From Acutalibacter sp. 1XD8-36 (GTDB lineage: Bacteria; Bacillota; Clostridia; Oscillospirales; Acutalibacteraceae), in assembly GCF_009917525.1 (NCBI RefSeq), contig NZ_QZDU01000010.1, forward strand, positions 1 through 64,000: a stretch of DNA of 64,000 bases, written 5' to 3'. The notes below the pieces were generated by a model. That model was not told where the DNA came from. It did not search any database and saw nothing but the letters and a program-made list of their open reading frames with translations. Shown here in pieces: positions 1-23,063 of this stretch (the stretch's first letter is position 1; every line of letters starts with the position of its first letter). Both the position numbers and the translations under genes were made by a program.

Positions 1-150
1 GGCCCCTAAAAGGCCCACGAATGGGCCACGGGTACTTTCAGCCCAAAATTGGCCCCTAAAAGGGCCAAAAATGACCCCTAAAAGGCCCACGAATGGCCCA
101 CGGGTACTTTCGGCCCAAAATTGGCCCCGAAAAGGCCCACGAATGGGCCA
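1..150. repeat. GGCC-rich tandem repeat, unit about 48-50 bp
   Basis: Two near-complete and two partial copies of a unit containing AAAAGGCCCACGAATGGGCC followed by ACGGGTACTTTC and GGCCCAAAATT. Full units run at about 1-50 and 75-122; partial ones at 51-74 and 123-150. Each unit carries a GGCCCA/TGGGCC inverted repeat. The array probably continues left of the window. Its function is unknown; protein-binding sites for replication or partition are one possibility. Confidence 0.8.
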
Positions 151-181
151 GCGCCGAGGCAGCCCCCCAATGCGGGCTTTG

Positions 182-425
182 GACAAAGGGGGAGGATGAT
201 AACAGCAGAGCCATGATATGCGGATTGGCTGTCGCATTGTCGCACCGTCGCAGCCTGCCAAAAAAACTTTTTCCCAATACTGTAACCCTACCTATTTTTC
301 CTTACTTTTAAAAGTTTTCAAAAATAGGTGAGACAGTGCGACAAACTTCCAGCTTTCCTTTTCTGGCAATATGCTTCCATGTCCCACAACCTGTCGCATC
401 ATGGTCGCACGGTTGTCATCCCTGC
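182..425. repeat. Long direct repeat, copy 1 (iteron/dyad, origin-like)
   Basis: About 244 bp almost identical to 7165-7407, with only scattered differences. It holds six GTCGCA sites: three direct at an 8-bp period (231-236, 239-244, 247-252), one inverted (337-342) and two more direct (393-398, 404-409). Between them lies an AT-rich 38-bp dyad at 291-328, with outer arms CCTATTTTT/AAAAATAGG and a central ACTTTTAAAAGT palindrome. Iterons flanking an AT-rich dyad near a helicase gene are what replication origins of plasmids and SaPI-type islands look like. That function is inferred; an operator region is the alternative. Confidence 0.85.
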
Positions 426-474
426 CTCTGTCCTGCCCGCCAATGCCCAAGCTGAAGCCTGCTTACGAATGTTA

Positions 475-507
475 AGAGGACTCCCATCCGGGAGCCCTCT
501 CTTTTTT
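475..507 (+). terminator. Rho-independent terminator
   Basis: Stem AGAGGACTCCC/GGGAGCCCTCT with loop ATCC, followed by CTTTTTT. It reads on the + strand only. No convincing coding region precedes it, so it either ends a transcript entering from the left of the window or an RNA made across the 182-425 repeat. Confidence 0.75.
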
Positions 508-728
508 ATAGGGGGCCAGCAGCCCCATTCCAGCGACAGCCAGGGGTGGGAACTCGCGTCAAGGTTCTCAGCCCATCAGCAAACTATCCAAAGCTGCTCG
601 CCTGCAACCCCGCAGCACGCCTCCGCCTGCTTTGCAGTTTTGCAAACTGCCCGAGGCTGCGAACGGGACGATGGTCCCTCACGACTATCCGTCGCAATGC
701 CGGGGCGATTGCTCCCAATTTTTTGACT

Positions 729-870
729 TATCACCGGCGCGTTTTTTTTCAAATTTCTCGGTGACAACACAGGACACAGAAGGCCCATGAAACGAGGAAT
801 TTTCGCGGCGCCGATGACAACGGTGACAGCGGATGACAAAATTTTGGCCAAATTTTGCAGCTTGTCACCG
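729..870. repeat. Second iteron cluster (GRTGACA) with AT-rich core
   Basis: Copies of (C/G)GRTGACA lie at 759-766, 812-819, 821-828 and 831-838, the last three at about one helical turn. An inverted copy TGTCACCG lies at 863-870 and a weaker TATCACCGG at 729-737. Between the direct and inverted copies is an AT-rich near-palindrome around AAAATTTTGGCCAAATTTT (838-857). A 10-bp inverted repeat, GGCCCATGAA/TTCATGGGCC, brackets it at 782-791 and about 885-894. It lies 620 bp upstream of the helicase start and may be the replication origin proper or a replication-protein operator. Confidence 0.65.
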
Positions 871-966
871 CCCGAAATGCCGCTATTCATGGGCCAACTT
901 GGCCTTCCGGGGCCTTATGGCCCGCGAGAAGCCCAAAAAGGGAAAAGGGCATAAAAGCGGCGACGC

Positions 967-1155
967 CACCCCTACGGGGTGACGGTCGGCATAGCCGACG
1001 CCGTTGCCCGCCAATGGCGGGCAACCTCTCCGCTTCGCTCCGAGGCTTTTACTGCGCTACGCTTGCCCTAAGAACAGTCCCCCGGACTGTTCTTAGGGTG
1101 CCCTGAAGCGGCACAGCCGCCACAGCCGAAACGATAAAGCTGCCAATCGTTTCGG
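967..1155. repeat. Cluster of consecutive perfect hairpins
   Basis: Five inverted repeats follow each other: CACCCC/GGGGTG (967-981), GTCGGC/GCCGAC (985-999), GTTGCCCGCCA/TGGCGGGCAAC (1003-1025), CCCTAAGAACAGTCC/GGACTGTTCTTAGGG with a 3-nt loop (1066-1098), and CCGAAACGAT/ATCGTTTCGG (1126-1155, followed by TTTT). Such clusters occur at oriT regions, at single-strand initiation sites and in structured RNAs. No relaxase gene is in the window to decide between these. Confidence 0.7.
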
Positions 1156-1332
1156 TTTTAAGGGCAAGGGCTTCCGGCTTGTGCGCGGTACTTCGATAAG
1201 GTTATGATTGAAAATACGCTTAGTCAAAAACCAATCATTGGCAAGAGTAGCCGCAAAAAATTTTTTTCGTGAGACTTTGCAATGGTGACGCGGCTTTTCC
1301 TCGATTGGGACAGTTTTCCCACCAAATTTACC

Positions 1333-1362
1333 TTGATTTTCCCGATTTCGGTATGGTATAAT
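1333..1362 (+). promoter_or_regulatory. Promoter of the helicase gene
   Basis: TTGATT at 1333-1338 and TATAAT at 1357-1362 with an 18-bp spacer, about 130 bp upstream of the helicase start at 1492. Confidence 0.7.
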
Positions 1363-1491
1363 TATATTATAGCCCAAGTTATGGCAAAAAAGCAAGGAGA
1401 GGATGCCTATAAAACAACAGAGCACGAATAAAAATGGTCGGAATTTCCTCCCATGGAAATACAACCAAATATTTTAAAGGAGTGTGATTTT

Positions 1492-3369
1492 ATGCACCCA
1501 GTGGGCACCAACTTGACACAGTGGGGGGCGGAACCAGAGGCCCAGGAAAGAAAGGAGCCGAAGCCTCACCCTGACCTTGAAAATGCCGTTGATGGCAGCA
1601 CGACAGATGTTCAGAATGCCGCAGCCACTGGAACAATCTTAACGTCGCTGCGCACTCGCGACCAGTTTTTGCAGTACATATTACTTGATTACTTGCGGGA
1701 ACTGAAAAAGAAGAACGCTTCTCTAACTCCCGAGGAGGTCGCGGGGGGAGCCGTAGAGGATATAAATTTGGCAATTAGAGGCAGAAACAACAATCTTCCT
1801 AAAGGGGAAAAAGACGAAAAGTGGAAATTTTTAGACGCACTTGACCCCCCACGGATTGCTGCTTGCTGCATAGAACTGAATCATGTCAAACGGATTCAGC
1901 TTAATAACGAGGATGACGAGAAAAGTTATGTTCTTGGCATCTATGAAAGGGATGGCCCAAACCGTGGTATCTACAACATTGATGAAGACGCCATCAACGC
2001 GCTTTGCCGGCGCTATAACAGTTCCCTGCGCAAGAGCGATATCAGCGAAATCAAGGCGGTTTTGATGGATACCGCGCCGATAGCCAGCCGGCTTCTCGAC
2101 CCGAATTTGATTCCGGTAAACAACGGCATTTTTGATTACAAAAAGAAGCGGCTAATCCCTTTCAGCCCGGAATATGTATTTACATCCAAATGCGGGACGG
2201 ATTACAACCCGATTGCGGCAAATCCCGTCATTATCAATCCGGACGGCACAAAGTGGGATGTGGTGTCCTGGATGGAATCGCTGGTGGACCATCTTCCCGA
2301 CAAAGCGGAAATGGCGGAGCTGTTGTGGAAGATTACCGGCGCCATGGTGCGGTATTTGGTGCCGTGGGATAAGGCGGTATTTCTCATTTCCCCCAAGGGG
2401 AACAACGGCAAGGGTACGCTGTGCGAGTTGCTGCGAAGCCTGCTGGGAAAGGGTAACTACGCCAACATCCCTATCACCAACTTCGGTAAAGATTTCATGC
2501 TGGAGCCGCTCACCCACGTCAACGCCATTTTGACTGACGAAAACGATGTGGGAACGTATGTCGACTCCGTTGGGAATCTGAAAGCAATCATCACGGGCGA
2601 CCAGATTCAGCTCAACCGCAAGTACAAGCCCCCTATCACATTCCGGTTCCGGGGATTCATGTTACAGTGTTTGAACGACTATCCCAACTATCGGGATAAA
2701 TCGGATTCACTGAACCGGCGGCAGCTATGCGTACCTATGACGAAATGTTTCACCGGCGAGGAACGCAGGTACATCAAGGCTGACTATGTGCATAGGAAAG
2801 AAGTTTTACAGTACGTTTTGTTCAAGGTCCTGAACATGGATTATGACCAGCTTCCAGAGCCGGAGTCGTGTAAGTGCGAGCTGGACAAGTCCAAAGAGAT
2901 GAACGACCCGGTGCTTCAATTCATGAATGAGCTCATGGGTGTGCTCGTGTGGGATTTGGTGCCGTACACGTTCCTGTACGACCTATACAAATCCTGGTAT
3001 GGCAGAAATGTTCCCGGTAAATCGCCGCTGTCGCGGAAAAAGTTTATCGAAGAGTTAAAGCGAAACCTTCCTTCATTCCCTGCGTGGACCTTACATCAGG
3101 ATGAAAACAGGAGGGACCTGGAAGTACGTTCAAAAGGAAATATGGAATTCACCGAACCTCTTATCGTGGAGTATGGGTTGGATGCCTGGACAAATGGTAA
3201 CTATACGGGCCGGAATGTGGATATAAAATGCTGGTTTTTTAAAAAAGAGAAATACCGGGGAATCATACGCGTTCCGGAAAACGAGGATTTAGAAGAAAAA
3301 TACGCAACGAGACCCGAAGATAATGTCCTGCCGGAAAAGACGCGTCCTGAGACAGAACCAATTGACTAA
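1492..3369 (+). CDS. P4/D5-family replicative helicase (SF3, DUF5906-type)
   Basis: Predicted ATP-driven DNA helicase of the phage/plasmid P4 family, used to start replication of the element. Of 625 residues, the middle and C-terminal part carries the SF3 Walker A motif SPKGNNGKGT (residues 300-309, K307), a TDEND Walker B-like stretch, and the following sensor region with GDQIQLNRKYKP. Residues about 150-290 resemble the D5 N-terminal region. No archaeo-eukaryotic or TOPRIM primase domain is visible in the first 150 residues, so it may be helicase only. The start is ATG 1492, not the in-frame ATG at 1453, because AAAGGAG lies 9 nt before 1492. It sits downstream of two iteron clusters it may bind. 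Family confident, role inferred. Confidence 0.9.
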   Translation: MHPVGTNLTQWGAEPEAQERKEPKPHPDLENAVDGSTTDVQNAAATGTILTSLRTRDQFLQYILLDYLRELKKKNASLTPEEVAGGAVEDINLAIRGRNNNLPKGEKDEKWKFLDALDPPRIAACCIELNHVKRIQLNNEDDEKSYVLGIYERDGPNRGIYNIDEDAINALCRRYNSSLRKSDISEIKAVLMDTAPIASRLLDPNLIPVNNGIFDYKKKRLIPFSPEYVFTSKCGTDYNPIAANPVIINPDGTKWDVVSWMESLVDHLPDKAEMAELLWKITGAMVRYLVPWDKAVFLISPKGNNGKGTLCELLRSLLGKGNYANIPITNFGKDFMLEPLTHVNAILTDENDVGTYVDSVGNLKAIITGDQIQLNRKYKPPITFRFRGFMLQCLNDYPNYRDKSDSLNRRQLCVPMTKCFTGEERRYIKADYVHRKEVLQYVLFKVLNMDYDQLPEPESCKCELDKSKEMNDPVLQFMNELMGVLVWDLVPYTFLYDLYKSWYGRNVPGKSPLSRKKFIEELKRNLPSFPAWTLHQDENRRDLEVRSKGNMEFTEPLIVEYGLDAWTNGNYTGRNVDIKCWFFKKEKYRGIIRVPENEDLEEKYATRPEDNVLPEKTRPETEPID

Positions 3370-3532
3370 TGATTTGATTGGCCAACATAGTTGGCACTAT
3401 AGTGAATACGAAACGACTTTGCAGCTAATTTCGAAAAGATTTCGCAACTGAATTTGAAAGTGAATAGCGCAACAGAGCTATATGAATACAATATGAGGGA
3501 GCGTCTGCTAAGGCGTCCAGACCATCAAAAAA

Positions 3533-3560
3533 GGCCCAGGCTGAAAACCTGTGCCTTTTT
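3533..3560. terminator. Bidirectional terminator
   Basis: Stem GGCCCAGG/CCTGTGCC with one mismatch, six A residues on the left and five T residues on the right. It can end the helicase transcript on the + strand and the candidate ncRNA on the - strand. Confidence 0.8.
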
Positions 3561-3571
3561 GCATTTCTCTC

Positions 3572-3600
3572 TTGCATTTTGCCAGGGAAAGTGCTATAAT
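3572..3600 (+). promoter_or_regulatory. Promoter opposing the candidate ncRNA
   Basis: TTGCAT at 3572-3577 and extended TGCTATAAT with -10 at 3595-3600, spacer 17 bp. A transcript would start near 3607, run antisense to the minus-strand ncRNA for about 100 nt and could end at the terminator at 3805-3834. Confidence 0.6.
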
Positions 3601-3804
3601 TAGAAATGCCAAGATAAATAAAGGGCAGGTCTGAGGGGATTGCCGTCCCCTCAGGACCCTATGCAGGAGATAAGGCCTCCTACACAGAAACCTCATGGTT
3701 TCGCCAACCCTATTATACTGAATTCCCAGTGAATTTGCAAGCAATAATTTTGTCTGGCGGGGACGCGGGATAGGGCTGTGTTTCGCATATTGAATTTATG
3801 CGGT

Positions 3805-3834
3805 GTAGGTAATAAGCCTGCACCGCTTTTTTGT
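3805..3834 (+). terminator. Rho-independent terminator
   Basis: Stem GCGGTGTAGG/CCTGCACCGC around TAATAAG, followed by TTTTTT. It points to a + strand transcript ending here although no coding region precedes it; the promoter at 3572-3600 is the best candidate source. Confidence 0.8.
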
Positions 3835-3993
3835 TTGTCTTGGGCGGGAAATTCCACAAAAATGGCGGGGCCTCTGTGGGCCTCGCCGGGAATACCGCCT
3901 CAAAATAGTTATAGTTAGGGGGCGTTAGTGCTTTTCGGGGGCGTCAAGCCGCCCCGGGTTCATTATGGAAACTGAATGAGGAGGGATAAGCCT

Positions 3994-5352
3994 ATGAAAT
4001 CCATCAAGACCACCCTGGCCGCTCTCTTGGCCATCATCACCATCCTGTCCGTCATCCCTATGTCCGCCTTTGCGGCGGCCAGCAGCTTCACGGACGTGCC
4101 CCAGAACGCCTGGTACTACGAGCCTGTCACCTACATGGCCGAGAACGGCTACATGTCCGGCACCGGGGACAACAAGTTCAGCCCCAACCAGACCACCACC
4201 CGCGCCATGTTCGTCACGGTGCTGGGCCGCATTGCCGGCATTGACCAGAACCAGTACAAAGGCACCTGCACGTTCCGCGACGTGAAGAAGGACTGGGCCG
4301 AGCCCTACATTGCCTGGGCCGCTGAAAATAATATTGTGAACGGTGTAGGCGACAATAGATTTGGCCCCAATAACTACGTCACCCGCGAGCAGGCCGCTGT
4401 GATTCTCTTCAACTACCTGAAGAAGGACTACACGCTGACGGTAAGCGACGAGTTTCTGAACAACGCTCCTGACAAGATTAACGTCAGCTCCTGGGCTGTA
4501 GAGGCCATGCAGTGGGCCACGTCCGCTGCCCTGATGCGCGGCGACGCCAATGGCACGCTCCGTCCCCGCTACTCCGCCACCCGTGCTGAGATTGCGACCA
4601 TCTTCAAGCGCTTTATTGAAATCAAGACCGACCTCGAGAACAACAAGCCCGACGTCCCTACCACTTGTGACCATGAATGGGAAGTGACGAAGACTGAGAA
4701 TATCACGCTCTTCACTGAGACTGTCCGCGAGTGGGCTCACGCCGACGCGCTGGACATCGACGCATGCAACGGCTGCAATATGAATATACAGCAATGGCTA
4801 TGTGACAATGCAGACAAGTATTCTAGCCCTAAGGAACTCGATGATGCTATGAAAATCCTCGGCGATGAAACTGGATGTCCTTGTTTACACGGCGCGAACC
4901 ATGGCGGGGGCCTTAACCTGCCTCTGACTTTTCCCGTCATGTCTGAGAAGATTTACAAGGCTGACATGCCCTCCGAAGAGACCTGCACCAAGTGCAACGC
5001 CGTACGCGACTGCGTGTCCACTCGTATAATCAACAACATCTCTGACGAGAATGTCTGGGAGCGCCATACCAAGGAAGTTCTCATCTCCGAGGCTTGGGAT
5101 GAAGAGCTCCGTCTTACTGGTGCGAACGAGTATGGCCAACCTGCTGGCACCTTGATTGACACCATTCATCATCCTCGCCGTGTCAACAATGAAATTGAGT
5201 ACTTTGAGAACGTTGAGACTCATGAACAAATTTACGTTGAGATGACAGGCTGCCGCCACCCCGAATGGGAAGAAGATTACTCTTCCGGTAACCTCGGCCC
5301 TGACTTCGCTCATTGCACATCCTGCAACAAAAAGATAGCCCCCCTTTATTAA
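3994..5352 (+). CDS. S-layer-homology surface protein with Cys-rich C-terminus
   Basis: Exported cell-wall-associated protein of 452 residues. A typical signal peptide ends at AFAA (about residues 1-28). Three SLH domains follow (about 30-90, 95-150, 155-210, with FTDVPQNAWYYEPV, FRDVKKDWAEPYIAWA and SSWAVEAMQWA), which normally bind pyruvylated wall polymers. The remaining 240 residues match no family I know and carry CDHEW, CNGC, CTKC and HCTSC pairs that could bind metal or form disulfides. The start is ATG 3994 behind GAGGAGGG; the upstream in-frame ATG at 3976 overlaps that site. It is cargo of the mobile element and may alter the host surface. The C-terminal function is unknown. Confidence 0.85.
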   Translation: MKSIKTTLAALLAIITILSVIPMSAFAAASSFTDVPQNAWYYEPVTYMAENGYMSGTGDNKFSPNQTTTRAMFVTVLGRIAGIDQNQYKGTCTFRDVKKDWAEPYIAWAAENNIVNGVGDNRFGPNNYVTREQAAVILFNYLKKDYTLTVSDEFLNNAPDKINVSSWAVEAMQWATSAALMRGDANGTLRPRYSATRAEIATIFKRFIEIKTDLENNKPDVPTTCDHEWEVTKTENITLFTETVREWAHADALDIDACNGCNMNIQQWLCDNADKYSSPKELDDAMKILGDETGCPCLHGANHGGGLNLPLTFPVMSEKIYKADMPSEETCTKCNAVRDCVSTRIINNISDENVWERHTKEVLISEAWDEELRLTGANEYGQPAGTLIDTIHHPRRVNNEIEYFENVETHEQIYVEMTGCRHPEWEEDYSSGNLGPDFAHCTSCNKKIAPLY

Positions 5353-5421
5353 GCGCCTGTATCATCCCTCACACGCCATCATAGTTTTCTGATTTATACT
5401 CTTCCAACTAAAACCACTAAT

Positions 5422-5456
5422 AAGAAATACGCGCCCAAGCGTATTTCTTATTTTTT
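5422..5456 (+). terminator. Terminator of the SLH gene
   Basis: Perfect 11-bp stem AAGAAATACGC/GCGTATTTCTT with loop GCCCAA, then ATTTTTT on the + strand. Confidence 0.85.
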
Positions 5457-5467
5457 ACTATGTCTGT

Positions 5468-5496
5468 ATTATACCACATATCTCTATAGATGTCAA
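5468..5496 (-). promoter_or_regulatory. Perfect-consensus orphan promoter
   Basis: TTGACA (5496-5491) and TATAAT (5473-5468) with a 17-bp spacer on the minus strand. It lies just after the broken SpaA-type gene and reads leftwards into the antisense strand of the SLH gene. No start codon with a ribosome site follows. It may be the promoter of a gene lost by rearrangement, or may make an antisense RNA. Confidence 0.7.
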
Positions 5497-5506
5497 CCTC
5501 TATTTT

Positions 5507-7243
5507 TTAATTCTCAGCATCCAAAACAGCGTCACCCTGGCCCTCGCTCTCACCCGTATCTTTATCAACCTTAGGGAACTCAATGATAAAAGTCTTATAC
5601 TTGTTATTAACAGTGACTTCAGGGACTCCAACCGTATTGAAGGAAATCATATCATCACTGTCATCCTTCACCCAACCACCTGTACCATTCATAGGTATCT
5701 TGTAAAGCATCTTAGTTTTAAGCAGTTGAACGCCTGCGTGAGGCATCTCAGAGACTACAATAAAACCAGGTGGGAAAGCAGCATAATCATTCGAACTACC
5801 CAAAACCGAATCATTCCAATAACCTTTGTCTTTCAAATCACTAATAGTGGCACTGTCCAAACAACCCGACGTACCATTCAAATCTATTATAGCCCTATTA
5901 CCGAGCTTTACTGTCTTAGCCTGGAACGAATAATGTACTTTACTAGAGTAGTTACCCTGAGCCTGCGACCAGGTAAAGTTCAAGTCTGGTATATACTCAA
6001 GCTTAAAGGGTATACCTACTACATTTATACCTGCGTTGGCTAAGTCATCAAGGCTTCCTCTTGAACCATCGGATAGCTTCTTGATAATACTGAACAACAG
6101 AGGGTCACGCTTGACTTTGTCTGCTATGACTACCTGCTTAACCCCTTCTCCAAACCCTTCGTCCTTTTTGGGGTCTATAACAATAGTCTGCTTCTCAGTA
6201 TTCAGCATCAGAGGCAGATTAGTAGGAATAGAGATTTCCTGAATATCAAAGCCTGTCTTGCTGTACTTCAGCTTGTCAGACTTAGCATAACCATTCTCGT
6301 TTGTTGTGAGCGTAGCTACCTGCTTGCCTGTATCTTTGTTAATGACAGAGAACTTAATGCCGCTAAGGTTATCAAACAACGGATTGCCTTCCGCGCATTT
6401 GCCCTCTATTTCTTTCTGTATCTCTACATATACGTCTTGGGGTGCACACTTCCAGGGCATTTTCAGAACAACTATTGACTCCTGAACGCCCATACTTGAC
6501 ATAGCAAAACCAAGCAAACAATAACCGCCCATACCATCAGTGCCATAAATACCGTCAATCGTAGCGTTCTGACCCACCATAGAACCGTCTGCGAACGAAT
6601 ACTTACCGTACATGATATGACTGAGCACAAAGCTGCCGTCAGGCGTCACGTATTCTGAGTCTATATTATCGAGAATGTAATCCTTCAAAGAATCAACACT
6701 CTCCGATTCATCCACTTCAGCCACAGGCAAATACGATGAATCCAATTCAGACAGACCGAAGTGAGCATCTACGTTGACAGAAAACTCTTGCATTCTGAAC
6801 ATACCGACAAAACCGTCAACGATATCTGTCTTCACGCGATGAGATTCAGAATTATTCTCATCCACAACGCTGCTCACACTCAACCCGACGAGACTAAACG
6901 TCTCATTCTCAGGCACGCCGGTGATATAGACTTTATCACCAGGCATGAACCACTTGGTGCCAGTCCTGCCATCCTCAAAGACCAGATGTCCGTTGTCGGT
7001 ATCGTTAAGGGTGACGGCAAAGGAGCCGTCCACAGGCTGGTCATAACCAACTTGTATGTCATCACGGATACCGACTTGCTGGACAATCTCCGATAAGGGC
7101 ATGGTGGAACCGCTATTGCTTCCGTCAGGGTCTAGGTTCCCTGCCTCGTCCGATGGGGGATTCAGACAAAGGGGAGGATGATAACACCAGAGCCATGATA
7201 TGCGGATTGGCTGTCGCATTGTCGCACCGTCGCAGCCTGCCAA
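5507..7243 (-). pseudogene. SpaA/Cna-B-type surface protein, truncated at both ends
   Basis: The frame encodes a large extracellular protein with an SpaA-like fold around FSVINKDTGKQVATLTTNENG and ends in KVDKDTGESEGQGDAVLDAEN. In this family the text after GDAVLD normally continues into another SpaA domain (DGAVYGLY-like), so the C-terminus, sortase signal and anchor are missing. The first 26 codons of the longest frame lie in the 7165-7407 direct repeat and encode no signal peptide; gene-like sequence starts only at about 7165. No ATG has a ribosome site (the ATG near 7102 has none). Base composition is more AT-rich than the neighbours. I read it as an internal fragment of a larger adhesin left by recombination at the repeat, probably not expressed as a working protein. 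Confidence 0.75.
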
Positions 7244-7407
7244 AAAAACTTTTTCCCAATACTGTAACCCTACCTATTTTTCCTTACTTTTAAAAGTTTT
7301 CAAAAATAGGTGAGACAGTGCGACAAACTTCCAGCTTTCCTTTTCTGGCAATATGTTTCCATGTCCCACAACCTGTCGCACCATGGTCGCACGGTTGTCG
7401 TCCCTGC
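7165..7407. repeat. Long direct repeat, copy 2 (iteron/dyad, origin-like)
   Basis: Near-identical to 182-425, with one G less in the G-run near its start. The 38-bp dyad is at 7273-7310 and the GTCGCA sites are conserved. It cuts into the SpaA-type gene on the left and lies 130 bp before ssb on the right. Homologous recombination between the copies would remove about 7 kb carrying the helicase, the candidate ncRNA, the SLH gene and the SpaA fragment. Confidence 0.85.
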
Positions 7408-7533
7408 GACTGTCCTTGTCCGCGCCATGGGCAGCGTGAATTTTTGCCGCAAAATGCGGCCAAGTTTATCCTTGAAAAACAATCTCCGGCGGCATGGGCC
7501 GACCGACAAAAACACGAAAAGGATGGACTAACT

Positions 7534-7956
7534 ATGATGAATACAGTAGCTCTCCACGGCCGTCTCACCGCCGCCCCTGAAATCAGGCATACCCCCAACG
7601 ACATTGCTGTTGTCAGCTTCTCTCTTGCCGTAAACTCCGGCTACGGCGATAAGCAGAAAGCGTCTTTTGTTGACTGCGTAGCCTGGCGCAGCACAGCCGA
7701 GTTTATCTGCAAGTATTTCGCCAAAGGGCAGGAGATGAACCTTGTCGGCAGCCTCCAGACCCGCACCTATGAAGACCGCAACGGCAACACGCGCAAGGCT
7801 ACCGAGGTTGTCGCCCGCGAAGTAGACTTCTGCGGCCCCAGAGCCAGCCAGGAAGCCAGCCCAAAGCCTAAAAAGCGTGCTAAGGGGAACTCCAAAAATG
7901 CGGCTACAGCCCCGGCGCTTCCAAACTATGACGCCGACGATGACCTGCCGTTCTGA
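7534..7956 (+). CDS. ssb: Single-stranded DNA-binding protein
   Basis: Binds single-stranded DNA during replication of the element and recruits partners through its acidic tail. The 140 residues have an OB fold over about 1-105 (LHGRLTAAPEIRHTPN, FVDCVAWRSTAEFICKYFAKGQ, VGSLQTRTYEDRNGN), a basic linker (SPKPKKRAKGNSKN) and the classic tip DDDLPF. The start is ATG 7534 (or the adjacent 7537) with AAAAGGA 10 nt upstream; longer frames run into the direct repeat and lack a ribosome site. It lies directly after the origin-like repeat and heads the ssb-pcfK-pcfJ group, fitting a replication or single-strand transfer module. It is probably an element-specific paralog of the chromosomal SSB. Confidence 0.95.
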   Translation: MMNTVALHGRLTAAPEIRHTPNDIAVVSFSLAVNSGYGDKQKASFVDCVAWRSTAEFICKYFAKGQEMNLVGSLQTRTYEDRNGNTRKATEVVAREVDFCGPRASQEASPKPKKRAKGNSKNAATAPALPNYDADDDLPF

Positions 7957-8024
7957 CGCCCAACAGCAGCCATGCGCCTATGCGTGGGCTGCTGTTTTTT
8001 ACTGCCCAAAAAAGGAGGATTCAC

Positions 8025-8489
8025 ATGGAAAACATCATCACCATCCAAGACAGGCTCTACCCTGCTTTGGCGAAAGAGAAGATTGCCAACCAACTGGCCA
8101 CCTTCACCGGCGGGCAGAAAGAGAAAGCCATCTCCCAGTTCGCCGCCTCCCAGCTGTGCCACTTCTGTGAGGAATCGCCATTGTTTGCAGAAGTAGTCTA
8201 CAAGACCAGGCGCACCCTCTCCGACTGCTGCGCGGAAGTCATGAAGGGCACCGGTAACTGCGTGTCGGACATTGACGTGTACCGCGGCATCGTGCGGGCA
8301 TACTTCCCTAACGCCGACGTCCGGTTCCTGATGGACATTGAGATAAACGGCGCGGCCCCCTCCGAGGAAGAAATGGCGAAACTCCCGGAGAAGCCCTCGC
8401 CGAAGGTGTCCGCCAAAAAGGCAGCGCCTGCTCCGGCCCCAAAGCCCGCCCCGGCCAAGCCCGAGAGCATCCAACTGTCACTATTCTAA
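8025..8489 (+). CDS. PcfK-like protein
   Basis: Small protein of 154 residues encoded just upstream of a PcfJ-like gene, as PcfK is on conjugative plasmid pCF10 and many clostridial elements. The region SDIDVYRGIVRAYFPNADVRF matches the DxxVxxxxxxY pattern I know from PcfK-like proteins. An Ala/Pro/Lys-rich linker follows (about 125-148), and the tail SIQLSLF resembles a short docking peptide found on many DNA-metabolism proteins. The start is ATG 8025 with AAAGGAGG upstream. A hairpin built from GCAGCAGCCATGCGCCTATGCGTGGGCTGCTG-like arms separates it from ssb. The role is unknown; participation in plasmid processing or replication is inferred from company only. Confidence 0.65.
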   Translation: MENIITIQDRLYPALAKEKIANQLATFTGGQKEKAISQFAASQLCHFCEESPLFAEVVYKTRRTLSDCCAEVMKGTGNCVSDIDVYRGIVRAYFPNADVRFLMDIEINGAAPSEEEMAKLPEKPSPKVSAKKAAPAPAPKPAPAKPESIQLSLF

Positions 8490-8500
8490 GGAGGAAATCT

Positions 8501-10465
8501 ATGCTGATTAAGAAGATTCTGGCCGCCCTGCCTCTGTCGCCCGCTCCCAAGCGCCTGCCCAGGCACGCTGGCGTCTGCGCTGGGGCGGCGGTCCACCACG
8601 CCGGACGCTGCGGCGACGTGCTGGCCGTAGACGTATACAGCCGCAAGCGGGAACTCCTGTACCGCTTTTACTCCGACGGCAGGAACTATATTACCCGCCT
8701 CCAGCACCCCTTCAGCACCTTTAAAGAACCCGGCTGGACTAAGCGTAATCCTACAGAAAGCCATATCTATTCTTTGCCCGACGATATTGCCGCGAATCCC
8801 GCGAGTATCGCGGCGGTGGAAGAGGTACTGGGCCGTGTTGCGGACTGGCGTGGCGATAATAGCAAGATTGGCTGCGCTATTCAGATGTTTATATACCGTG
8901 TAAATCAGGAGCGCCGTGACCGGGCCCGGGAGCGAAAAAGAGCGCTGCAAAAGGCCCACTTTGCCATGTTCCCCGAGTACCCCGCAGACCTGGCGGCGTT
9001 CTGCGAGGACCGCGTTTTCCAGTCCTCGGTGCTGTATGTTTCAAAGCTGAAAAAGACATTGGCCAATGGCCAAGTCTCCGGTGAGCGGCGGGCCGTGTGC
9101 AGGCATTGCGGAAAGTCGTTTCAGGTGGGGCGCGAGGTCAAGCCTGGAGGCTCCGGAATCTGCCCCAAGTGCGGCCACCCGGTAATCTATAGGGCCGGCT
9201 GGCTTGAAAAAGAAGTTACCCACAAGGCCAAAATCTGCATCGCCTGCAAGGTAGACGGCCAGCTGCTCCTGCGCTATGTGGACGTGGAGCGCATTATCTA
9301 CCCCGACCGCAAGGAGCCCCAGTACCGCTTCTCCGACTGCTTCAAGACCCTGTTTCTGACCGTCAACGGCAAGCCCACCGAGTACGCCTACGCCTGGTGC
9401 CAGGCCCCATACTGCGGCTATGACTGGCGCCGGCTTCGCAACAGTTCGGAGTGCCTGGGCGAGAGCTATGTGTATACTCCCAATCTGCGGGACGTGTTCG
9501 GGCCGAAGTATTACAACGTGGACTTGCAGGCCAGCCTCTCCGGCCTGCGTCGCCCTATCTCCTTCCGGCGGCTGTTAGACAACCTGAAGAACGTGCCCCA
9601 GGCCGAGTACCTGATGAAGGCCGGACTGCCGGTCCTTGCGGCGGGGAATCTGCCGGATGCCAGCGCGAAGAACCTGCCGGAGCTGACCGGGCTGGGCAAG
9701 CACTTCCTCCCCGCCATGCGGGAGAGCCAGGCCAGCTTCCAGGAAATAAAGGCCATAGCTGCCCAGCGGAACGCTGCCCCCGAGGACCTGCGCCAGCTGT
9801 GCGCCCTGCGCCTGGACAGAGATTGCCTGATTCTGCTGGAGAGAATTGCCCACTTTAACGCCATAGGCCGCGCCCTGCGGTACGTGCAGGCCCAGAAAGA
9901 GGCTTCCACCGGCCGGATGCGGCGCAACAAGCTCCCCTACTTCCTGCGGCTCTACCGGGACTATCTCGACATGGCCCAGAGCCTGAAAAGCGACATGAGC
10001 CAGCGGGCCATCCTGGAGCCTCGGGACCTGAAAGAGCGCCATGACCTGCTGGCAGCAAGGGTCAACGAGCTGAAGTCCAGGCCGGACAACGAACGCTTCC
10101 AGCAGGCCGTTGACGAGGGCCTGTACGGGTGGGCCCAGGAATACGCCAATGACAGCTACCGCGTGGTCTACCCCATGAAGCGAAGCGACCTGACCACCGA
10201 GGGCCAGTGCCTGAATCACTGTGTGGGAGGGCAAGCCTACTTTGAAAGGCACATCCTGGGCCATCAGATGGTGTTCTTTATCCGCAAAGTTTCGGCCCCT
10301 GACAAGCCTTACTTCACCGCTGAAATCGACACGGACACCGGGAGGATTATCCAGCTGTACGGCTTTGGGGACTGCTCCGCGCCCAAAGAGGTGCGGGCGT
10401 TTACGGAGGGGTTCGCACGAGCTGTCGTTAAATGGCATAGCGCGATGCAGGTGAAGGCGGCGTGA
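8501..10465 (+). CDS. PcfJ-like protein with zinc ribbon
   Basis: 654-residue protein of the PcfJ family, widespread in mobile elements of Firmicutes and of unknown biochemical role. A zinc ribbon CRHCG...CPKCG lies at about residues 199-225. The C-terminal block with LTTEGQCLNHCVGG, FFIRK, PYFTAEID and IIQLYGFGD (about 560-630) is the conserved PcfJ signature. The start is ATG 8501 with AAGGAGG 6 nt upstream and 11 nt after the pcfK-like stop, so the two genes are probably translated from one message. It could bind nucleic acid through the zinc ribbon. No catalytic residues are assigned. Confidence 0.85.
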   Translation: MLIKKILAALPLSPAPKRLPRHAGVCAGAAVHHAGRCGDVLAVDVYSRKRELLYRFYSDGRNYITRLQHPFSTFKEPGWTKRNPTESHIYSLPDDIAANPASIAAVEEVLGRVADWRGDNSKIGCAIQMFIYRVNQERRDRARERKRALQKAHFAMFPEYPADLAAFCEDRVFQSSVLYVSKLKKTLANGQVSGERRAVCRHCGKSFQVGREVKPGGSGICPKCGHPVIYRAGWLEKEVTHKAKICIACKVDGQLLLRYVDVERIIYPDRKEPQYRFSDCFKTLFLTVNGKPTEYAYAWCQAPYCGYDWRRLRNSSECLGESYVYTPNLRDVFGPKYYNVDLQASLSGLRRPISFRRLLDNLKNVPQAEYLMKAGLPVLAAGNLPDASAKNLPELTGLGKHFLPAMRESQASFQEIKAIAAQRNAAPEDLRQLCALRLDRDCLILLERIAHFNAIGRALRYVQAQKEASTGRMRRNKLPYFLRLYRDYLDMAQSLKSDMSQRAILEPRDLKERHDLLAARVNELKSRPDNERFQQAVDEGLYGWAQEYANDSYRVVYPMKRSDLTTEGQCLNHCVGGQAYFERHILGHQMVFFIRKVSAPDKPYFTAEIDTDTGRIIQLYGFGDCSAPKEVRAFTEGFARAVVKWHSAMQVKAA

Positions 10466-10547
10466 CTCTCAAACAAGTTCTTACAAAAATCTTACAATTT
10501 TGCCTCTGACTTCTATTGTCAATAAAGGGGTTTCAGAGGGGCCCAAT

Positions 10548-10576
10548 TTGACTTTTTTGCCTATTTATAGTATAAT
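10548..10576 (+). promoter_or_regulatory. Strong promoter before the structured leader
   Basis: TTGACT at 10548-10553 and TATAAT at 10571-10576, spacer 17 bp. Transcription should start near 10583, exactly where the leader's closing stem begins. Confidence 0.8.
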
Positions 10577-10582
10577 ATAACC

Positions 10583-10705
10583 ATAGCAAAGGCGAACGAA
10601 CTATGCAGATATCAAGCACATTATACAAACAAAGAGGGTTTAGGGTAGGGAATCAAGTGTTCTCGCCCATGGGGACTGTGTAAAGCCGGTTTGCCTTTGC
10701 TAAAT
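10583..10705 (+). promoter_or_regulatory. Long structured 5' leader, candidate riboswitch or RNA element
   Basis: The leader is closed by a 14-bp stem: TAGCAAAGGCGAAC near its start pairs with GTTTGCCTTTGCTA near 10688-10701, with one G-U pair. About 90 nt are enclosed, including GAGGGTTTAGGGTAGGG and GTTCTCGCCCATGGGG. The ribosome site AGGAG of the next gene lies about 17 nt after the stem. It matches no riboswitch consensus I can recall. It is either a cis-regulatory RNA of the next gene or a small RNA. Confidence 0.5.
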
Positions 10706-10731
10706 TTACCTTTAAATAGGAGTGATTTACC

Positions 10732-11559
10732 ATGGAGAGCGATATGTCCATGAGAACCTTTCAAAATCGCCTCCACTTGTGTGGCAGGCTGAATCATGTA
10801 CGAAAGGCCGTGGCGGAAAACGTGGACGAAAACTCACGTCTGAACTTCGCCAGCATCAAGCCGCCTCCGGCCCATTTGCCGGTGGACGAGCCGGACATGA
10901 AGCCATACGGCGAGTACGCAGCCCTGTTGTGTTTGCGAATCATTCTTGACAATAAGCTGATGGACACGAAAGCAATGCTGCGGGAAGAAAGCAGATACCT
11001 GGAGAGGCACGGGGAAGCAAAAGCCTTCCCATACTTGCGTGGAAAGGAAAGCTTCCTTAAAAGCTTCAGCAAGGTTCAGGCGGAAGAGTTTTATGGCTTC
11101 TGCCGTCAAACAAAGCCATTTTCCAGCTTTGCGGCATCCTGGTGCTTGGAGCAAATCTTCGAGCACTTCCACCAGGATGCGGACCGCTTCCTTGCGTTCA
11201 TTACTTCTCACGAAAAAGCCTATCTGCAAGAGCGTGGGAACACCATAAGCATGGCAAGATGGAAAGAAAGCAGAGAACGGTTCCACCAGGCTTTTTGCCC
11301 GGCCTCACAGGCTTTCAAGGCTTTTTTGGCAAACTATTGGGGCGTGGCGGGAACGGCGGAAAATGGTTCATACTCCCACTATCGTGACGGCGCCGCGTAC
11401 TTGACCTTTACCACGGAGGGCGGCGTTCCCGATAAAGCCATTATCGCGCTGGCCGAGAAATTCCCAAAGCTGCGGTTTGTTCATTTCTGGTATGACGTGG
11501 AATGTCCCGAAAATTGCGACTGTGTTTCCTACTATTTTGGACATGAGACAGCCTCGTAA
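10732..11559 (+). CDS. Unknown protein with Api92-like C-terminal domain
   Basis: 275 residues, start ATG 10732 with AGGAG 9 nt upstream. The first 190 residues are mostly helical, charged, and match no family I recognise. The last 80 (SYSHYRDGAAYLTFTTEGGVPDKAIIALAEKFPKLRFVHFWYD, in order) resemble the ferredoxin-like C-terminal domain of Api92/DUF1281 phage proteins, where a small sheet protein reports on a paired alpha-beta segment. It is the only gene behind a strong promoter and a long folded leader, and stands apart from the ssb-pcfK-pcfJ group. Its role in the element is unknown; anti-defence or host takeover are possibilities, not findings. Confidence 0.6.
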   Translation: MESDMSMRTFQNRLHLCGRLNHVRKAVAENVDENSRLNFASIKPPPAHLPVDEPDMKPYGEYAALLCLRIILDNKLMDTKAMLREESRYLERHGEAKAFPYLRGKESFLKSFSKVQAEEFYGFCRQTKPFSSFAASWCLEQIFEHFHQDADRFLAFITSHEKAYLQERGNTISMARWKESRERFHQAFCPASQAFKAFLANYWGVAGTAENGSYSHYRDGAAYLTFTTEGGVPDKAIIALAEKFPKLRFVHFWYDVECPENCDCVSYYFGHETAS

Positions 11560-11613
11560 TTAAGAGGTATGCAAGGGCCCTCTGGAGGGGATTCCAGGGG
11601 GCTCTCCTGCACT

Positions 11614-12198
11614 TTAAGGCGTTGTTTCTTTCTGGTACTGCGGCACATAAGTAAGCTCCTTCACGCGCTGGATGGCTGCCCGCTTACCCTGTGGGTTCAG
11701 GTGCTGGAATGAATCCAGGACAGACTTCACATCGCCTGTGATATCGCTGTATCTTCCGCGCAGAGTATAGATGTTTTCCTCCATATTCTGTTCCCTTAAA
11801 CACAACGCCGCCACATAACATCGAAAGACAGCAGGGTCAACTTCCGCTTTTGTGGTTTCGTCAACTTTCCCATTTACCTTCAAAAATATTTCAAGGGCTT
11901 CCCTGATTAGGGTGGCGGCAGTTGTAAGAGCCCTGGAATCGGGCATATCCAAAAGCCTAAACAGATACAGAATCTCGTTGCTGAACTTGATACTGTCCGA
12001 GCCCTCTGTCTTGCCCAGCAATACATCCACCGTAGTTTCAAAGTAATCCGCCAGCTGCATCAAAGTGGCCGCGTTCGGCGTCAGCCCCCGGGACTTCCAT
12101 GACGCCATGGTGGATTGGCTGATGCCAAGCTCCTTGCGCACCTGCGCGGGGGTTTTATCTCGTTCTTTACACAGCTTTTCAAAGCAGTCGTAAAACAT
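11614..12198 (-). CDS. XRE-family repressor of the element
   Basis: 194-residue DNA-binding regulator. The N-terminal helix-turn-helix (about 5-62) reads PAQVRKELGISQSTMASWKSRGLTPNAATLMQLADYF. The C-terminal 120 residues are helical, match no domain I know, and may serve in dimerization or induction. It is transcribed away from the excisionase and integrase genes, the usual place for the maintenance repressor of an integrative element. Its promoter (12337-12309) faces the rightward promoter, and both -35 boxes overlap copies of the same inverted sequence, a likely operator. The start ATG 12198 has GGGAGGGA just upstream. Confidence 0.85.
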   Translation of the reverse strand: MFYDCFEKLCKERDKTPAQVRKELGISQSTMASWKSRGLTPNAATLMQLADYFETTVDVLLGKTEGSDSIKFSNEILYLFRLLDMPDSRALTTAATLIREALEIFLKVNGKVDETTKAEVDPAVFRCYVAALCLREQNMEENIYTLRGRYSDITGDVKSVLDSFQHLNPQGKRAAIQRVKELTYVPQYQKETTP

Positions 12199-12240
12199 TG
12201 CGGTCCCTCCCTCCGGGAATGTTAAATTATTATGACTTTC

Positions 12241-12338
12241 CTTGCGTTCCTCGCGTATCTATGCTATACTATCGATGGAAACGACGAATAATCATTGGAA
12301 GTATCGACATTATAACATATCCCATTTGGGAACGCAAG
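12241..12338. promoter_or_regulatory. Face-to-face promoters with paired operators
   Basis: Rightward promoter: TTGCGT 12242-12247, TATACT 12265-12270, spacer 17. Leftward promoter: TTGCGT 12337-12332, TATAAT 12314-12309, spacer 17. The two point at each other, so their transcripts overlap by about 25 nt. Each -35 lies in one arm of a perfect 10-bp inverted repeat, CTTGCGTTCC (12241-12250) and GGAACGCAAG (12329-12338). One repressor dimer could therefore read both. The layout recalls the switch of phage 186. Confidence 0.75.
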
Positions 12339-12491
12339 CGGTACTGGTTATTTGACGCAAAATCATCCAATGAAAGGGGGGATTGCATGCTATAGATTGA
12401 TGTAAATGGGTTTCGGGGTGGCCCCAGGACTAAAGAATGACGGGTGAAATAAAAACATATGCGGTGGGAAGCACATGAGAAAGGAAATACT

Positions 12492-12776
12492 ATGCCCTCC
12501 AAATGTTGTTTTTCAATAAACGAGGCTGCTGAATATTCCAGCGTTGGAAGACAGACTCTTAGAAATCTGATTAAGGAAAAAAAGATTCCCTGCCTCCTGG
12601 TAGGAACACGGCAGCTTATCCTGGTACAAGATTTAGAGAACTTCCTGTTTATCAACAGGGGGAAAGACTTGCTTGATATGGCTAATTTGGAGTCCGTTGA
12701 ACTGCATGAGAACCGGATGCAGACGGAACTGCATGAGAGCCGGATACAAGTCCATTCAGCAGTAGAAATCGGCTAA
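12492..12776 (+). CDS. Excisionase-like HTH protein
   Basis: 94-residue protein with a winged helix-turn-helix of the excisionase/HTH_17 (MerR-like) type at about 5-58: CFSINEAAEYSSVGRQTLRNLIKEKKIPCLLVGTR, then LVQDLENFL, read here in pieces. Such proteins bend att DNA and steer the integrase toward excision. The start is ATG 12492 with GAAAGGA upstream; the longer frame from 12459 overlaps that site. The tail contains a short repeat, ELHENRMQT and ELHESRIQV. It lies first downstream of the rightward promoter, opposite the repressor, consistent with a lysis-lysogeny type switch. Confidence 0.75.
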   Translation: MPSKCCFSINEAAEYSSVGRQTLRNLIKEKKIPCLLVGTRQLILVQDLENFLFINRGKDLLDMANLESVELHENRMQTELHESRIQVHSAVEIG

Positions 12777-12819
12777 GGCCAATTATAATTACCAATTCGA
12801 TAAGAATGGAGGCATAATC

Positions 12820-13401
12820 ATGCCGTTAATTTTTCTCGCCGTCTATATGGCGGCACACGTAAGCGAGCGCTATTTCCGCGTCAGCTTTCCTATGGAGGAG
12901 TTTATGGACAAAATGAAAGCTCTGGCGTCCGACTACCTCAAGCAAACACACCATACTCAAGACGGAATTACCTGGGATGACGCTCTGAAAAAAATTCCGA
13001 AGACTCTATGGGAAAAATACGGCTTTTATAAAGCTGACGACGAATATAATATTGCGTATCCCCCCGACTTTCATGTAACGGGTGACGCTTTCCTTATTTT
13101 CCCAAAAAGCGTTCAGTTGATGCAGGCGGCTTCTTCCATGACGTCATACCTTTGGGTGCGGCTGGACCAGGAAATTCTTGAACAAAGCCAAGAGGGCGTG
13201 ATGGACAGGATACAGGAATTTGTGTGCATATGGGTTCCCCGCTTTGTGGACTTCGGGTATGACAATATGACGCTTTTTGTTGAAAAGGCTCTGAAAGAAA
13301 CCGACCCGGATTTTTGGGAAGTATTCGAGGAAGAGGAAGAGTTCGACCCGGATGAATACGGATGTGAATCCCAATATGCCCAGGTTGTAAGTAAGCTGTA
13401 A
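12820..13401 (+). CDS. Unknown acidic protein of the element
   Basis: 193 residues, start ATG 12820 behind GGAGG. I recognise no family. Visible features are aromatic residues throughout, a central WVRLDQEILEQSQEG helix and a strongly acidic tail (EVFEEEEEFDPDEYG, about 168-182). The first residues (MPLIFLAVYMAAHV) look hydrophobic but are too short and lack the charge pattern of a clear signal peptide. It lies 43 bp after the excisionase-like gene and 105 bp before integrase, and probably shares the rightward transcript. Acidic tails are common in DNA mimics and anti-defence proteins, but that is speculation here. Confidence 0.55.
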   Translation: MPLIFLAVYMAAHVSERYFRVSFPMEEFMDKMKALASDYLKQTHHTQDGITWDDALKKIPKTLWEKYGFYKADDEYNIAYPPDFHVTGDAFLIFPKSVQLMQAASSMTSYLWVRLDQEILEQSQEGVMDRIQEFVCIWVPRFVDFGYDNMTLFVEKALKETDPDFWEVFEEEEEFDPDEYGCESQYAQVVSKL

Positions 13402-13425
13402 ATTCCATTGAGGTAGGAGGCGCTG

Positions 13426-13459
13426 TTGACAGGGGCGTGGATTTCCGGTATACTGGAAA
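13426..13459 (+). promoter_or_regulatory. Integrase promoter with palindrome over the -10
   Basis: TTGACA 13426-13431 and TATACT 13449-13454, spacer 17, near consensus. The -10 lies within TTTCCGGTATACTGGAAA (13442-13459), an imperfect palindrome with TTTCC/GGAAA arms around GTATAC. This is a likely operator controlling integrase. Confidence 0.75.
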
Positions 13460-13506
13460 CCAGCCACCGCAGCAGCGCCGCTTGCCATATGAAAGGAGTT
13501 TTTAAT

Positions 13507-14808: not shown

Positions 14809-15190
14809 AACTGTCCCTTGTGGGAAGCTGGTAAGGGACAAAACAAGGGACAAAAGGGAGAAAATAGGGCTTTATCCCGCATAAATCCAGTGTTTTCGCG
14901 GGACATGGGAATAAACAGCAAAAAACCGCGTTTTCGTCCATGGTGGTGCGGGGATGGGGATATAGCTCCCTGCCCACCTCCACCGGCTCGTCAATAACAT
15001 ACAGATACCCCTTTGCTGTGCCGTTGTGGGTTATCACGCCATCGTCGTCATAACCCAGCATACGGGGCTTATGGGAGAAGGCCTCAGCCAGCTCCCGCCA
15101 TTGAGTGACGGTACTCCCCTTCTTAAGCTCCCAAAACTCCATGGGCGAGCCGTGGTACCAGGGCCCGCCCGGTTCAAGCTTTATCTCCAC
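14570..15190 (-). CDS. Host gene with Arr-like fold, 3' end replaced by the element
   Basis: The credible part is the first about 90 residues: a GTG start at 15190 (GGAAGGGAG 12 nt upstream, 4 bp after the GNAT stop), then GPWYHGSPMEFWELKKGS, FSHKPRMLGYDDDG and GYLYVIDEPVEVGRELYPHPRT. This HGS...YVIDEP pattern resembles the small Arr-type ADP-ribosyltransferase fold, but the call is weak and catalytic residues are not assigned. From about codon 90 (near 14920) the frame becomes Cys/Pro-rich and runs antisense into integrase to a chance stop at 14570. I take this as the element having replaced the native C-terminus. Confidence 0.5.
   Translation of the reverse strand: MEIKLEPGGPWYHGSPMEFWELKKGSTVTQWRELAEAFSHKPRMLGYDDDGVITHNGTAKGYLYVIDEPVEVGRELYPHPRTTMDENAVFCCLFPCPAKTLDLCGIKPYFLPFVPCFVPYQLPTRDSFIPRLPTCPAAWRSLSWNPFQHGHRHSWLYECQRAPAALVHPWGSRRLPAGYLYKYGEADGSGNVPGQTATYSNPGRDL
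14812..14852. repeat. AAGGGACA repeats beside the att region
   Basis: TGTCCCTT at 14812-14819 (inverted) and AAGGGACA at 14833-14840 and 14845-14852 (direct, 12-bp period) directly after the integrase stop. Short repeats in this position are typical arm-type integrase or excisionase binding sites. Confidence 0.55.
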
Positions 15191-15194
15191 TTCT

Positions 15195-16903: not shown

Positions 16904-16995
16904 TGGGCAACACCCCTTTCTCCCTATATCATCCCATATTTTGGATAAAAACACAAGGGGTTTTTTAATATTTTTATATTTCTATATAAAAGCAT

Positions 16996-17028
16996 AAAAA
17001 GAGGAGAGGCCGCGGACACGGCCCCTCC
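16996..17028 (-). terminator. Terminator of the AraC gene
   Basis: Stem GGAGGGGCCG/CGGCCTCTCC (minus strand) with a short loop, followed by TCTTTTT at about 17002-16996. Confidence 0.8.
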
Positions 17029-17047
17029 CAACAGGTATTTAGCTGTC

Positions 17048-17911: not shown

Positions 17912-17983
17912 ATTTTCCGCCCCCTTATGTGAACACATCATACCATATCCGGCAGCATAAATCCTGGCGCGGCTTGCACAGAT

Positions 17984-19948: not shown

Positions 19949-20009
19949 CAGTATTCACCTCATAAAGGGCCTTTTCCCGGCCCAAAATTAACCGCTTAAA
20001 ACAAACTCC

Positions 20010-20903: not shown

Positions 20904-20932
20904 AAGCTGCCTCCCTTTTCCATGGCAAAAGC

Positions 20933-21826: not shown

Positions 21827-21924
21827 TATAGTCATCCCTTTCGGCTTGGAGTCTCATTTCTCCCTATTATACAGGAAAACTGTCGAAAAGGCAAGGGGGG
21901 TCAGGGTGGAAATACCTAGCCGGT

Positions 21925-23020: not shown

Positions 23021-23063
23021 ATAAAGCTATAGTAAAACTGTTAATCGAAAGGACCGGGCTTTT

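Follow-up and report, generated by a model that had tools for sequence, protein, structure and literature searches.

In phage-inducible chromosomal islands (PICIs), the replication origin is made of two iteron sets that flank an AT-rich region beside the gene of the Rep helicase (PMC6092414), and the Rep protein of the Staphylococcus aureus pathogenicity islands (SaPIs) recognises the iterons of its origin through its C-terminal domain (PMC7581432). As far as the available parts of these papers go, elements using a helicase of the SaPI type have one origin, located beside the helicase gene (PMC6092414, PMC7581432), and in SCCmec the intergenic region beside the operon of the helicase Cch2, a protein with a Primase_Cterm domain, bears repeats and is bound by this helicase (PMC7581432). 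The DNA considered here is a stretch of 64,000 nucleotides from Acutalibacter sp. 1XD8-36 (contig NZ_QZDU01000010.1, positions 1 to 64,000, forward strand; hereafter the window), in which a repeat of about 250 bp occurs near a helicase gene of this type. This repeat is probably an iteron origin or initiator-binding site of the SaPI/PICI/P4 type, which would be present three times in one integrative element and undergo ectopic exchange between its copies.

Two copies of the repeat lie in the window, both on the + strand: copy 1 (c1, 182-434), between a transfer operon and the helicase gene, and copy 2 (c2, 7165-7416), upstream of genes encoding a single-strand binding protein (SSB) and PcfK- and PcfJ-like proteins. 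They are direct repeats, 97.2% identical over these coordinates by BLAST and 97% identical over 249 nt without gaps (186-434 and 7168-7416). Each contains two sets of GTCGCA iterons. The left set comprises three direct motifs, with a spacing of 8 bp in c1 (231, 239 and 247; set 231-252, + strand) and starting at 7213, 7221 and 7229 in c2 (set 7213-7234, + strand). The right set of c1 (337-409, both strands) consists of an inverted motif at 337 and direct ones at 393 and 404, six in total for this copy; that of c2 (7319-7410, both strands) includes motifs at 7319 (-), 7375 (+) and 7386 (+) and a seventh one at the right end, at 7405 (-). The AT-rich core of c1 (260-339), a candidate melting region, contains an imperfect dyad (290-329) whose arms, 290-309 and 310-329, are 80% complementary. 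The 80 nt from position 260 are the most AT-rich (70% AT), and 0.26% of the 80-nt stretches of window positions 1-14900 are as AT-rich. Three iterons on the left, three or four on the right and an AT-rich core between them make a layout comparable to the origin definition given for PICIs and SaPIs in the available part of PMC6092414.

A search of the genome itself revealed a third copy (c3), located on another contig (G000:C43:9562-9813) and 100% identical to c2 over 252 bp. The window starts at base 1 of its contig, C1, and both C1 and C43 begin, in opposite orientations, in a GGCCC-rich tandem repeat of ~72 bp (window 1-145 and G000:C43:1-143) that lies between the transfer operon and c1. 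In the related genome G022, positions 11485-23408 match C43 reversed (7062-19000) and positions 23338-27244 match C1 (1-3898); the genome G027 shows the same continuity. C43 reversed thus runs into C1 and, on this comparison of contigs, all three copies belong to one integrative element, roughly 27 kb long as delimited here and with putative ends. The sequence-only reading of the window had proposed two near-identical repeats with six GTCGCA each, which are indeed present and 97% identical, and an AT-rich dyad, whose arms pair as said but of which a diverged relative (G006) has not retained the left arm. Both of its copies are real, but its count was incomplete, and the idea that they bracket a 7-kb cassette had to be abandoned, as there are three copies, one per module, and 182-7407 is the middle of the ~27-kb element.

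The core of the element carries, in this order, genes for p208, p163, an Rpn nuclease, then c3 (reversed), p207, ClpP, a type IV secretion system (T4SS) coupling protein, p142, p327, a DUF3991/Toprim protein, p814, p811, then c1, the helicase, an SLH-domain protein, then c2, SSB (7534-7956, +, downstream of c2), PcfK and PcfJ (8025-10465, +; the PcfK-like protein is below the Pfam cut-off, E 6e-5) and p275. All core genes have the same direction, except for a cargo gene encoding a SpaA-domain protein, and c3 has the opposite orientation to c1 and c2. Each copy is placed near the head of a different module, namely the coupling-protein/primase operon (c3), the helicase (c1) and SSB-PcfK-PcfJ (c2). 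After p275 come genes for a cI-like protein, p193 and a tyrosine integrase (13426-14808, +), the last near the right end of the element; these are not shared at that place by the element G022A of genome G022 or by that of G027. The integrase is of the kind expected of an integrative mobilizable or conjugative element. A search for attachment sites that compared the two ends of the element yielded only two direct matches (15 nt and 12 nt) and two inverted ones (13 nt each), none of them convincing. Among the proteins scanned, several of which match no family, none was recognised as a relaxase. Likewise, no phage packaging gene was recognised among the proteins scanned (several again without family match), and the element as a whole does not qualify as a PICI; a coupling protein, ClpP and PcfK/PcfJ-like proteins were found instead of a packaging set. 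Window positions 1-15500 have no near match in the phage or plasmid collections. The 811- and 814-aa proteins of the transfer operon (L004:154-2589 and L004:2549-4993, - strand) are 97-100% identical in the matched relatives, and at the thresholds applied no family of Pfam, NCBIfam or PHROGs matches them.

Over the whole window, GTCGCA is not enriched (24 occurrences for 22.9 expected); it is clustered. The densest 200 bp of the element, at c3, holds 7 occurrences, for a maximum, in 60 first-order Markov shuffles, of 3 for GTCGCA and of 5 for any 6-mer per 200 bp. Clusters of 6-mers as dense or denser are found only in the tandem repeat (window 1-145), where the count is inflated by the unmerged contig ends in the joined string.

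The helicase gene (1453-3369, +) encodes a 638-aa superfamily 3 (SF3) helicase of the P4/SaPI type with D5_N, DUF5906 and Pox_D5 matches and a P4-family primase C-terminal domain (TIGR01613). A profile (A1) built from this helicase together with four of its relatives hits a single solved sequence, 7ola_A, annotated 'DNA primase' (E 4.9e-86), which we take to be a SaPI primase-helicase. c1 ends ~1 kb upstream of the helicase open reading frame (ORF), and c2 and c3 are not beside it. Nothing in the G022 and G027 stretches matches the cI-like protein or p193 at E 1e-8, and for the integrase of the window they give only matches of 23-25%, outside the c3-c2 core; a reader encoded by the shared core is therefore favoured, and the cI-like protein and p193 were rejected as iteron readers since neither was matched in these stretches. 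The helicase of the element itself is most likely the protein that would bind the iterons.

In the genus, the repeat is present in 7 of the 29 genomes searched (its own included), and no copy was found outside the element in any of the 29. Seven elements hold at least two of the positions on contigs (G000, G001, G005, G022A, G022B, G027 and V24), the relative orientation of the copies being the same in all seven elements that have two or more copies on one contig. All three copies are kept in four of them (G000, G001, G022A and G027); G005 has c1, c3 and a c2 truncated by a deletion, and G022B and V24 have c1 and c3 only. In addition, a 4.2-kb contig of G006 bears c3, and in G017 only the right end of c3 (55 nt) is present, at a contig edge. 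As the flanks are position-specific, the copies are the same sites by descent. The SSB-PcfK-PcfJ genes are also missing from V24, within 10 kb past the helicase, and in G022B a deletion that joins window position 1171 to 8134, outside the repeats, has removed the helicase, SLH and SSB genes, c2 and part of PcfK/PcfJ. Since V24 and G022B lack both, c2 tends to go with its module. The deletion of G005 joins the inside of c2 to window position ~8864. The two related elements of G022 lie close together on a single contig (G022:C1, ~2046500-2068500 and ~2087600-2103200), the second one (G022B) being reduced but keeping c1 and c3; this contig bears five copies, each with its own flank. A pattern of 23 bases representing the iterons, with one mismatch allowed, was found in 2 of 394 genomes of the order, both of this genus.

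The c3 of G006 is ~79% identical to the other copies, in a context where the flanks are 82-83% and a further stretch 96% identical. Comparing it with the c3 of G027, 41 of 42 iteron positions are identical, for 150 of 210 in the rest (gaps counted as changes; Fisher p 6e-5, for one diverged copy whose neighbouring positions are not independent). As G006 keeps the iterons and has lost the left arm of the dyad, the iterons look constrained, unlike the dyad. Leaving G006 aside, the copies are mosaic at 49 variable columns: their ends are mostly position-specific and their middle moves between positions. For example, the c3 of G000 is of the c2 type throughout, with 0 differences from the c2 of the same element and 5 substitutions and 2 gap events from the c3 of G001 (distance table without two incomplete copies, the c2 of G005 and the 55 nt of G017); the c1 of G005 has a middle of the c3 type, and that of G027 a right end of the c2/c3 type. 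The middle of c1 is distinct in G022A and V24 and is shared with c2 in G000, G001, G022B and G027, no direction being assigned. Such a mosaic is the pattern of gene conversion, which may operate within an element or between co-resident elements.

None of the seven elements in which at least two copies share a contig shows a deletion or inversion via the copies. In particular, deletion of a cassette by recombination between c1 and c2 was rejected as an observed event: G022B breaks outside the repeats and G005 joins the interior of c2 to ~8864. The recombination anticipated by the sequence-only reading is supported as exchange resembling gene conversion, but not as deletion or inversion products. 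Its suggestion of looking in relatives for single-copy versions led to three copies in four of the seven elements, the other three having lost or truncated c2, and its fear that the second copy could be an assembly artefact proved very unlikely to be justified, given the five separately flanked copies of G022; duplication during assembly was discarded as their source on the same ground. Its comparison with SaPI origins holds, in view of the P4-family helicase, the arrays found at 7 of 10 close relatives and the iterons being the best-kept part of the repeat.

These ten close relatives of the helicase, 39-46% identical, come from outside the genus, and seven of them (G418, G197, G405, G195, L215, L219 and L220) have an iteron array upstream of the gene, the position that c1 occupies here. 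In the four found elsewhere in the order (G405, G197, G195 and G418; 40-43% identical), each array surrounds an AT-rich core, with the motif TTGTTCCA in G405 and G197, TGTGTCAG in G195 and TTTGTCCCAT in G418. The other six close relatives are on viral contigs, and three of these six have an array. The motifs of the relatives, TGGAACAA, TGGGACA, GGTACAAA, GTCACAAA, GACACACT and CGCGACA (the latter by eye, in L220), share with TGCGACA of the window a GNNACA form that was noticed after the fact. The array of L220 was seen by reading the locus, the single cluster found there in the cluster count described below being away from the helicase, and in L218 the top 8-mer falls within the gene and does not form an array.

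More broadly, the best 8-mer count exceeds the maximum of 20 Markov shuffles of the same locus in 32 of 39 helicase loci from viral contigs, L218 being counted among the 32, and does not in 7; these 39 were kept by eye among 80 returned, the other 41 (one being this element) having mostly figures that duplicate a kept row, as judged with no formal test. Most of the distant loci, which are mostly 28-36% identical, carry a single array right after the helicase match, with 6-11 motifs spread over about 240-385 bp. Clusters were counted, with no shuffle control, in the 31 of the 39 viral loci whose best 8-mer count is at least 5; there is one in 30 of the 31 and two in L231. Two clusters lie side by side in G418, G405 has two additional weak ones, and three equal clusters were found only in the element of the window and in G022A (stretches of up to 14 kb for the viral loci and of 20-40 kb for the four relatives of the order). 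The G418 array is partly duplicated in tandem upstream of the helicase (L211:977-1108 and 1310-1440; 132 bp, 90%), a smaller case of array duplication.

Relatives of the helicase are rare: 6 of 394 genomes of the order at E 1e-40, two of them in this genus, and 1 of 341 genomes of the class, the genome itself, at E 1e-60; the 13 plasmid records recovered are all below 60% identity. Relatives of the coupling protein were found in 4 of 398 genomes of the family. G415, which has a relative of the coupling protein (56%), has dispersed repeats of its own, and the stretches read there contain no GTCGCA array beyond two adjacent copies. The GTCGCANNGTCGCANNGTCGCA pattern occurs in at least 119 stretches of genome contigs, 80 of which are listed; the 16 of these loci that were compared with the proteins of the element have no match to them at E 1e-4, and six loci were read. 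It also occurs in 32 viral stretches, L024 being the one examined further. Bacteroidales contigs bear GTCGCA arrays with inverted pairs around an AT-rich core (L109:4778-4961, L110:2016-2201, L044:3812-4095, L046:1275-1507 and L057:1940-2194), found on three contigs of the isolate RUI054; genes nearby encode, among others, a sulfatase, GH43, HU-like and BRO proteins, and no helicase was recognised among the ten proteins scanned near them.

Other features accompany the helicases of the order. In G405 and G195, the array and the helicase gene are just downstream of a transfer-messenger RNA (tmRNA) gene (L207:16375-16740 and L210:14063-14412), and this position suggests integration at the 3' end of the tmRNA gene. 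Between the array and the helicase gene, L207, L209 and L210 have a promoter-like site followed by a GC-rich leader of ~200 nt that ends in a hairpin and a run of T. The leader is alike by eye in G405, G195 and G197, where it has no Rfam match, and could be a structured RNA linked to these helicases.

The three-copy anatomy, the fixed positions and orientations, the conservation of the iterons, the arrays at helicase relatives and the exchange between positions all support the iteron origin or initiator-binding site. In this mechanism, the SF3 helicase would bind the TGTCGCAC iterons after excision of the element, open the AT-rich core and load there, while ectopic gene conversion, together with selection on the iterons, would keep the copies alike. 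c1 may be an active origin, c2 and c3 serving as extra origins or as accessory or copy-control sites. A bolder version, in which three near-identical origins all work, one per module, with one SaPI/P4-type helicase and gene conversion, so that modules would be copied or exchanged as independently replicable units, is tentative and rather doubtful. The presence of the same origin-like sequence near the head of each module, with signs of exchange between the copies, bears on the coordination of replication, transfer and copy number, and on how modules from different elements stay compatible. Moreover, iteron arrays beside such helicases can be detected by simple clustering, and this offers a means of predicting the origins and iteron specificity of elements not yet characterised. 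A literature search found no work joining integrative and mobilizable elements, iterons, helicase and replication origin, which is not taken to mean that triplicated origins are new to the literature.

Several observations weigh against the origin reading. G022B has c1 and c3 but lacks its own helicase gene; it shares its genome with G022A, which has one. The conservation test concerns a single diverged copy, as indicated above. No array was found at three of the ten close relatives, L216 (on the same contig as L215), L217 and L218, and the stretches of the relatives mostly contain one array and not three, c2 and c3 having no counterpart there. The exact 8-mer test culminates, in the window, at the tandem repeat (4 copies, shuffle maximum 3) and not at the iterons, which stand out as 6-mers. 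Finally, a second iteron-like array lies between c1 and the helicase gene (728-869; TTATCACC, GGTGACA, GATGACA, GGTGACA, GATGACA and TGTCACC, with no shuffle control), together with an inverted repeat (782-802 and 875-895). This GRTGACA array, nearer the helicase gene, could be the true origin, in which case c1-c3 would have a different reader. Parts of it resemble, by eye, motifs of the arrays of G197 and G405.

The alternative that departs least from the origin reading, of which it is a variant, is a single origin, either one copy of the repeat or the 728-869 array, the other copies being accessory iterons that titrate or pair the initiator and set the copy number. Dispersed iterons do set the copy number of some plasmids. 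The two iteron types upstream of the helicase gene suit this alternative, as does the maintenance of c1 and c3 where c2 is missing (V24 and G022B) or truncated (G005); however, the complete copies keep the whole layout, including the AT-rich core, and not the iterons alone. It is about as probable as three working origins, most of the weight lying elsewhere.

The main rival is that the copies are a shared regulatory region, with operators and a promoter, perhaps bidirectional, that would co-activate the transfer, helicase and SSB modules upon excision. All three copies indeed precede core genes, and each has a weak promoter-like match on the minus strand (TTGAAA-16-AAAAAT). Furthermore, from c3 to the coupling-protein operon, no promoter is visible except inside c3, which suits a regulatory role and is one more point against an origin. 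However, as c3 is inverted and the core genes all have the same direction, a promoter working in one direction cannot act for both c3 and c2. The helicase gene is preceded by a promoter-like site of its own, separate from c1 (1333-1362, +, TTGATT-18-TATAAT), and a terminator-like hairpin stands just right of c1 (481-506, +; stem 481-494, then a T-rich tail). As for the minus-strand match, its score (9 of 12) is the weakest among the matches listed, and the arm that G006 has lost contains its -10; the cI-like regulator, for its part, is not matched in the stretches of G022 or G027. Altogether, a regulatory region seems unlikely, its bidirectional form being the one to reckon with.

That the repeat is a transfer origin or a relaxosome or partition site is improbable. 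c3 adjoins the T4SS coupling-protein operon and c2 the PcfK/PcfJ-like genes, but none of the proteins scanned, several of which lack a family match, was recognised as the product of a relaxase or partition gene, and similarly designed arrays adjoin helicase genes that were picked regardless of transfer genes. Lastly, an insertion sequence or a small non-autonomous transposon resembling a miniature inverted-repeat transposable element, evoked by the likeness between GGACAAAGGGGGAGGATGATAAC at one end of c1 and the reverse complement of the other end, GGACAGAGGCAGGGATGACAACC, was rejected as highly improbable, since the copies occupy three fixed places with a constant relative orientation, were found only inside the element (including 5 of 5 within the two elements of the single G022 contig, and none outside in the 29 genomes of the genus) and show no apparent target-site duplication in the aligned flanks.

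Two cargo genes separate the helicase gene from c2. One encodes the SLH-domain surface protein (3976-5352, +). The other is the SpaA-domain ORF (5507-7243, -), whose listed TTG start, inside c2, is probably not the true one. In G022A and G027, the SpaA ORF is absent (window 5507-7109) and its first 48 codons, beside and within c2, remain; being absent at the same place from both, the SpaA gene looks like exchangeable cargo.

Compared with known systems, the locus first recalls phage P4, whose alpha protein acts on two separate iteron regions, ori1 and crr. These are not known to be near-identical copies of each other; the helicase of the present element is of the P4 primase family, but it is associated with three near-identical 250-bp copies. 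Iteron plasmids such as R6K and P1 also have several initiator-binding sites per replicon, which are not known to be full-length near-identical copies and depend on other initiator families. The putative origin bound by Cch2 of SCCmec shares with this locus a repeat-bearing intergenic region and a helicase of the Primase_Cterm type; it differs in being a single site, downstream of the operon, with no triplication mentioned in the available part of the source (PMC7581432). The closest likeness is to the rep-ori region of PICIs and SaPIs, with paired iteron sets around an AT-rich core and, for c1, a neighbouring ORF for a D5_N/DUF5906 helicase (PMC6092414, available part). Here, however, there are three copies, in an element that carries coupling-protein and PcfJ/PcfK-like genes and is not a recognised phage satellite. 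Position also differs: the PICI origin is described as 3' of rep, whereas c1 is upstream of the helicase gene, as are the arrays of the seven close relatives that have one; the arrays of the distant loci, past the helicase match, come near the position described for PICIs (PMC6092414, same part) and, with 6-11 motifs over about 240-385 bp, have a size like that of the present repeat.

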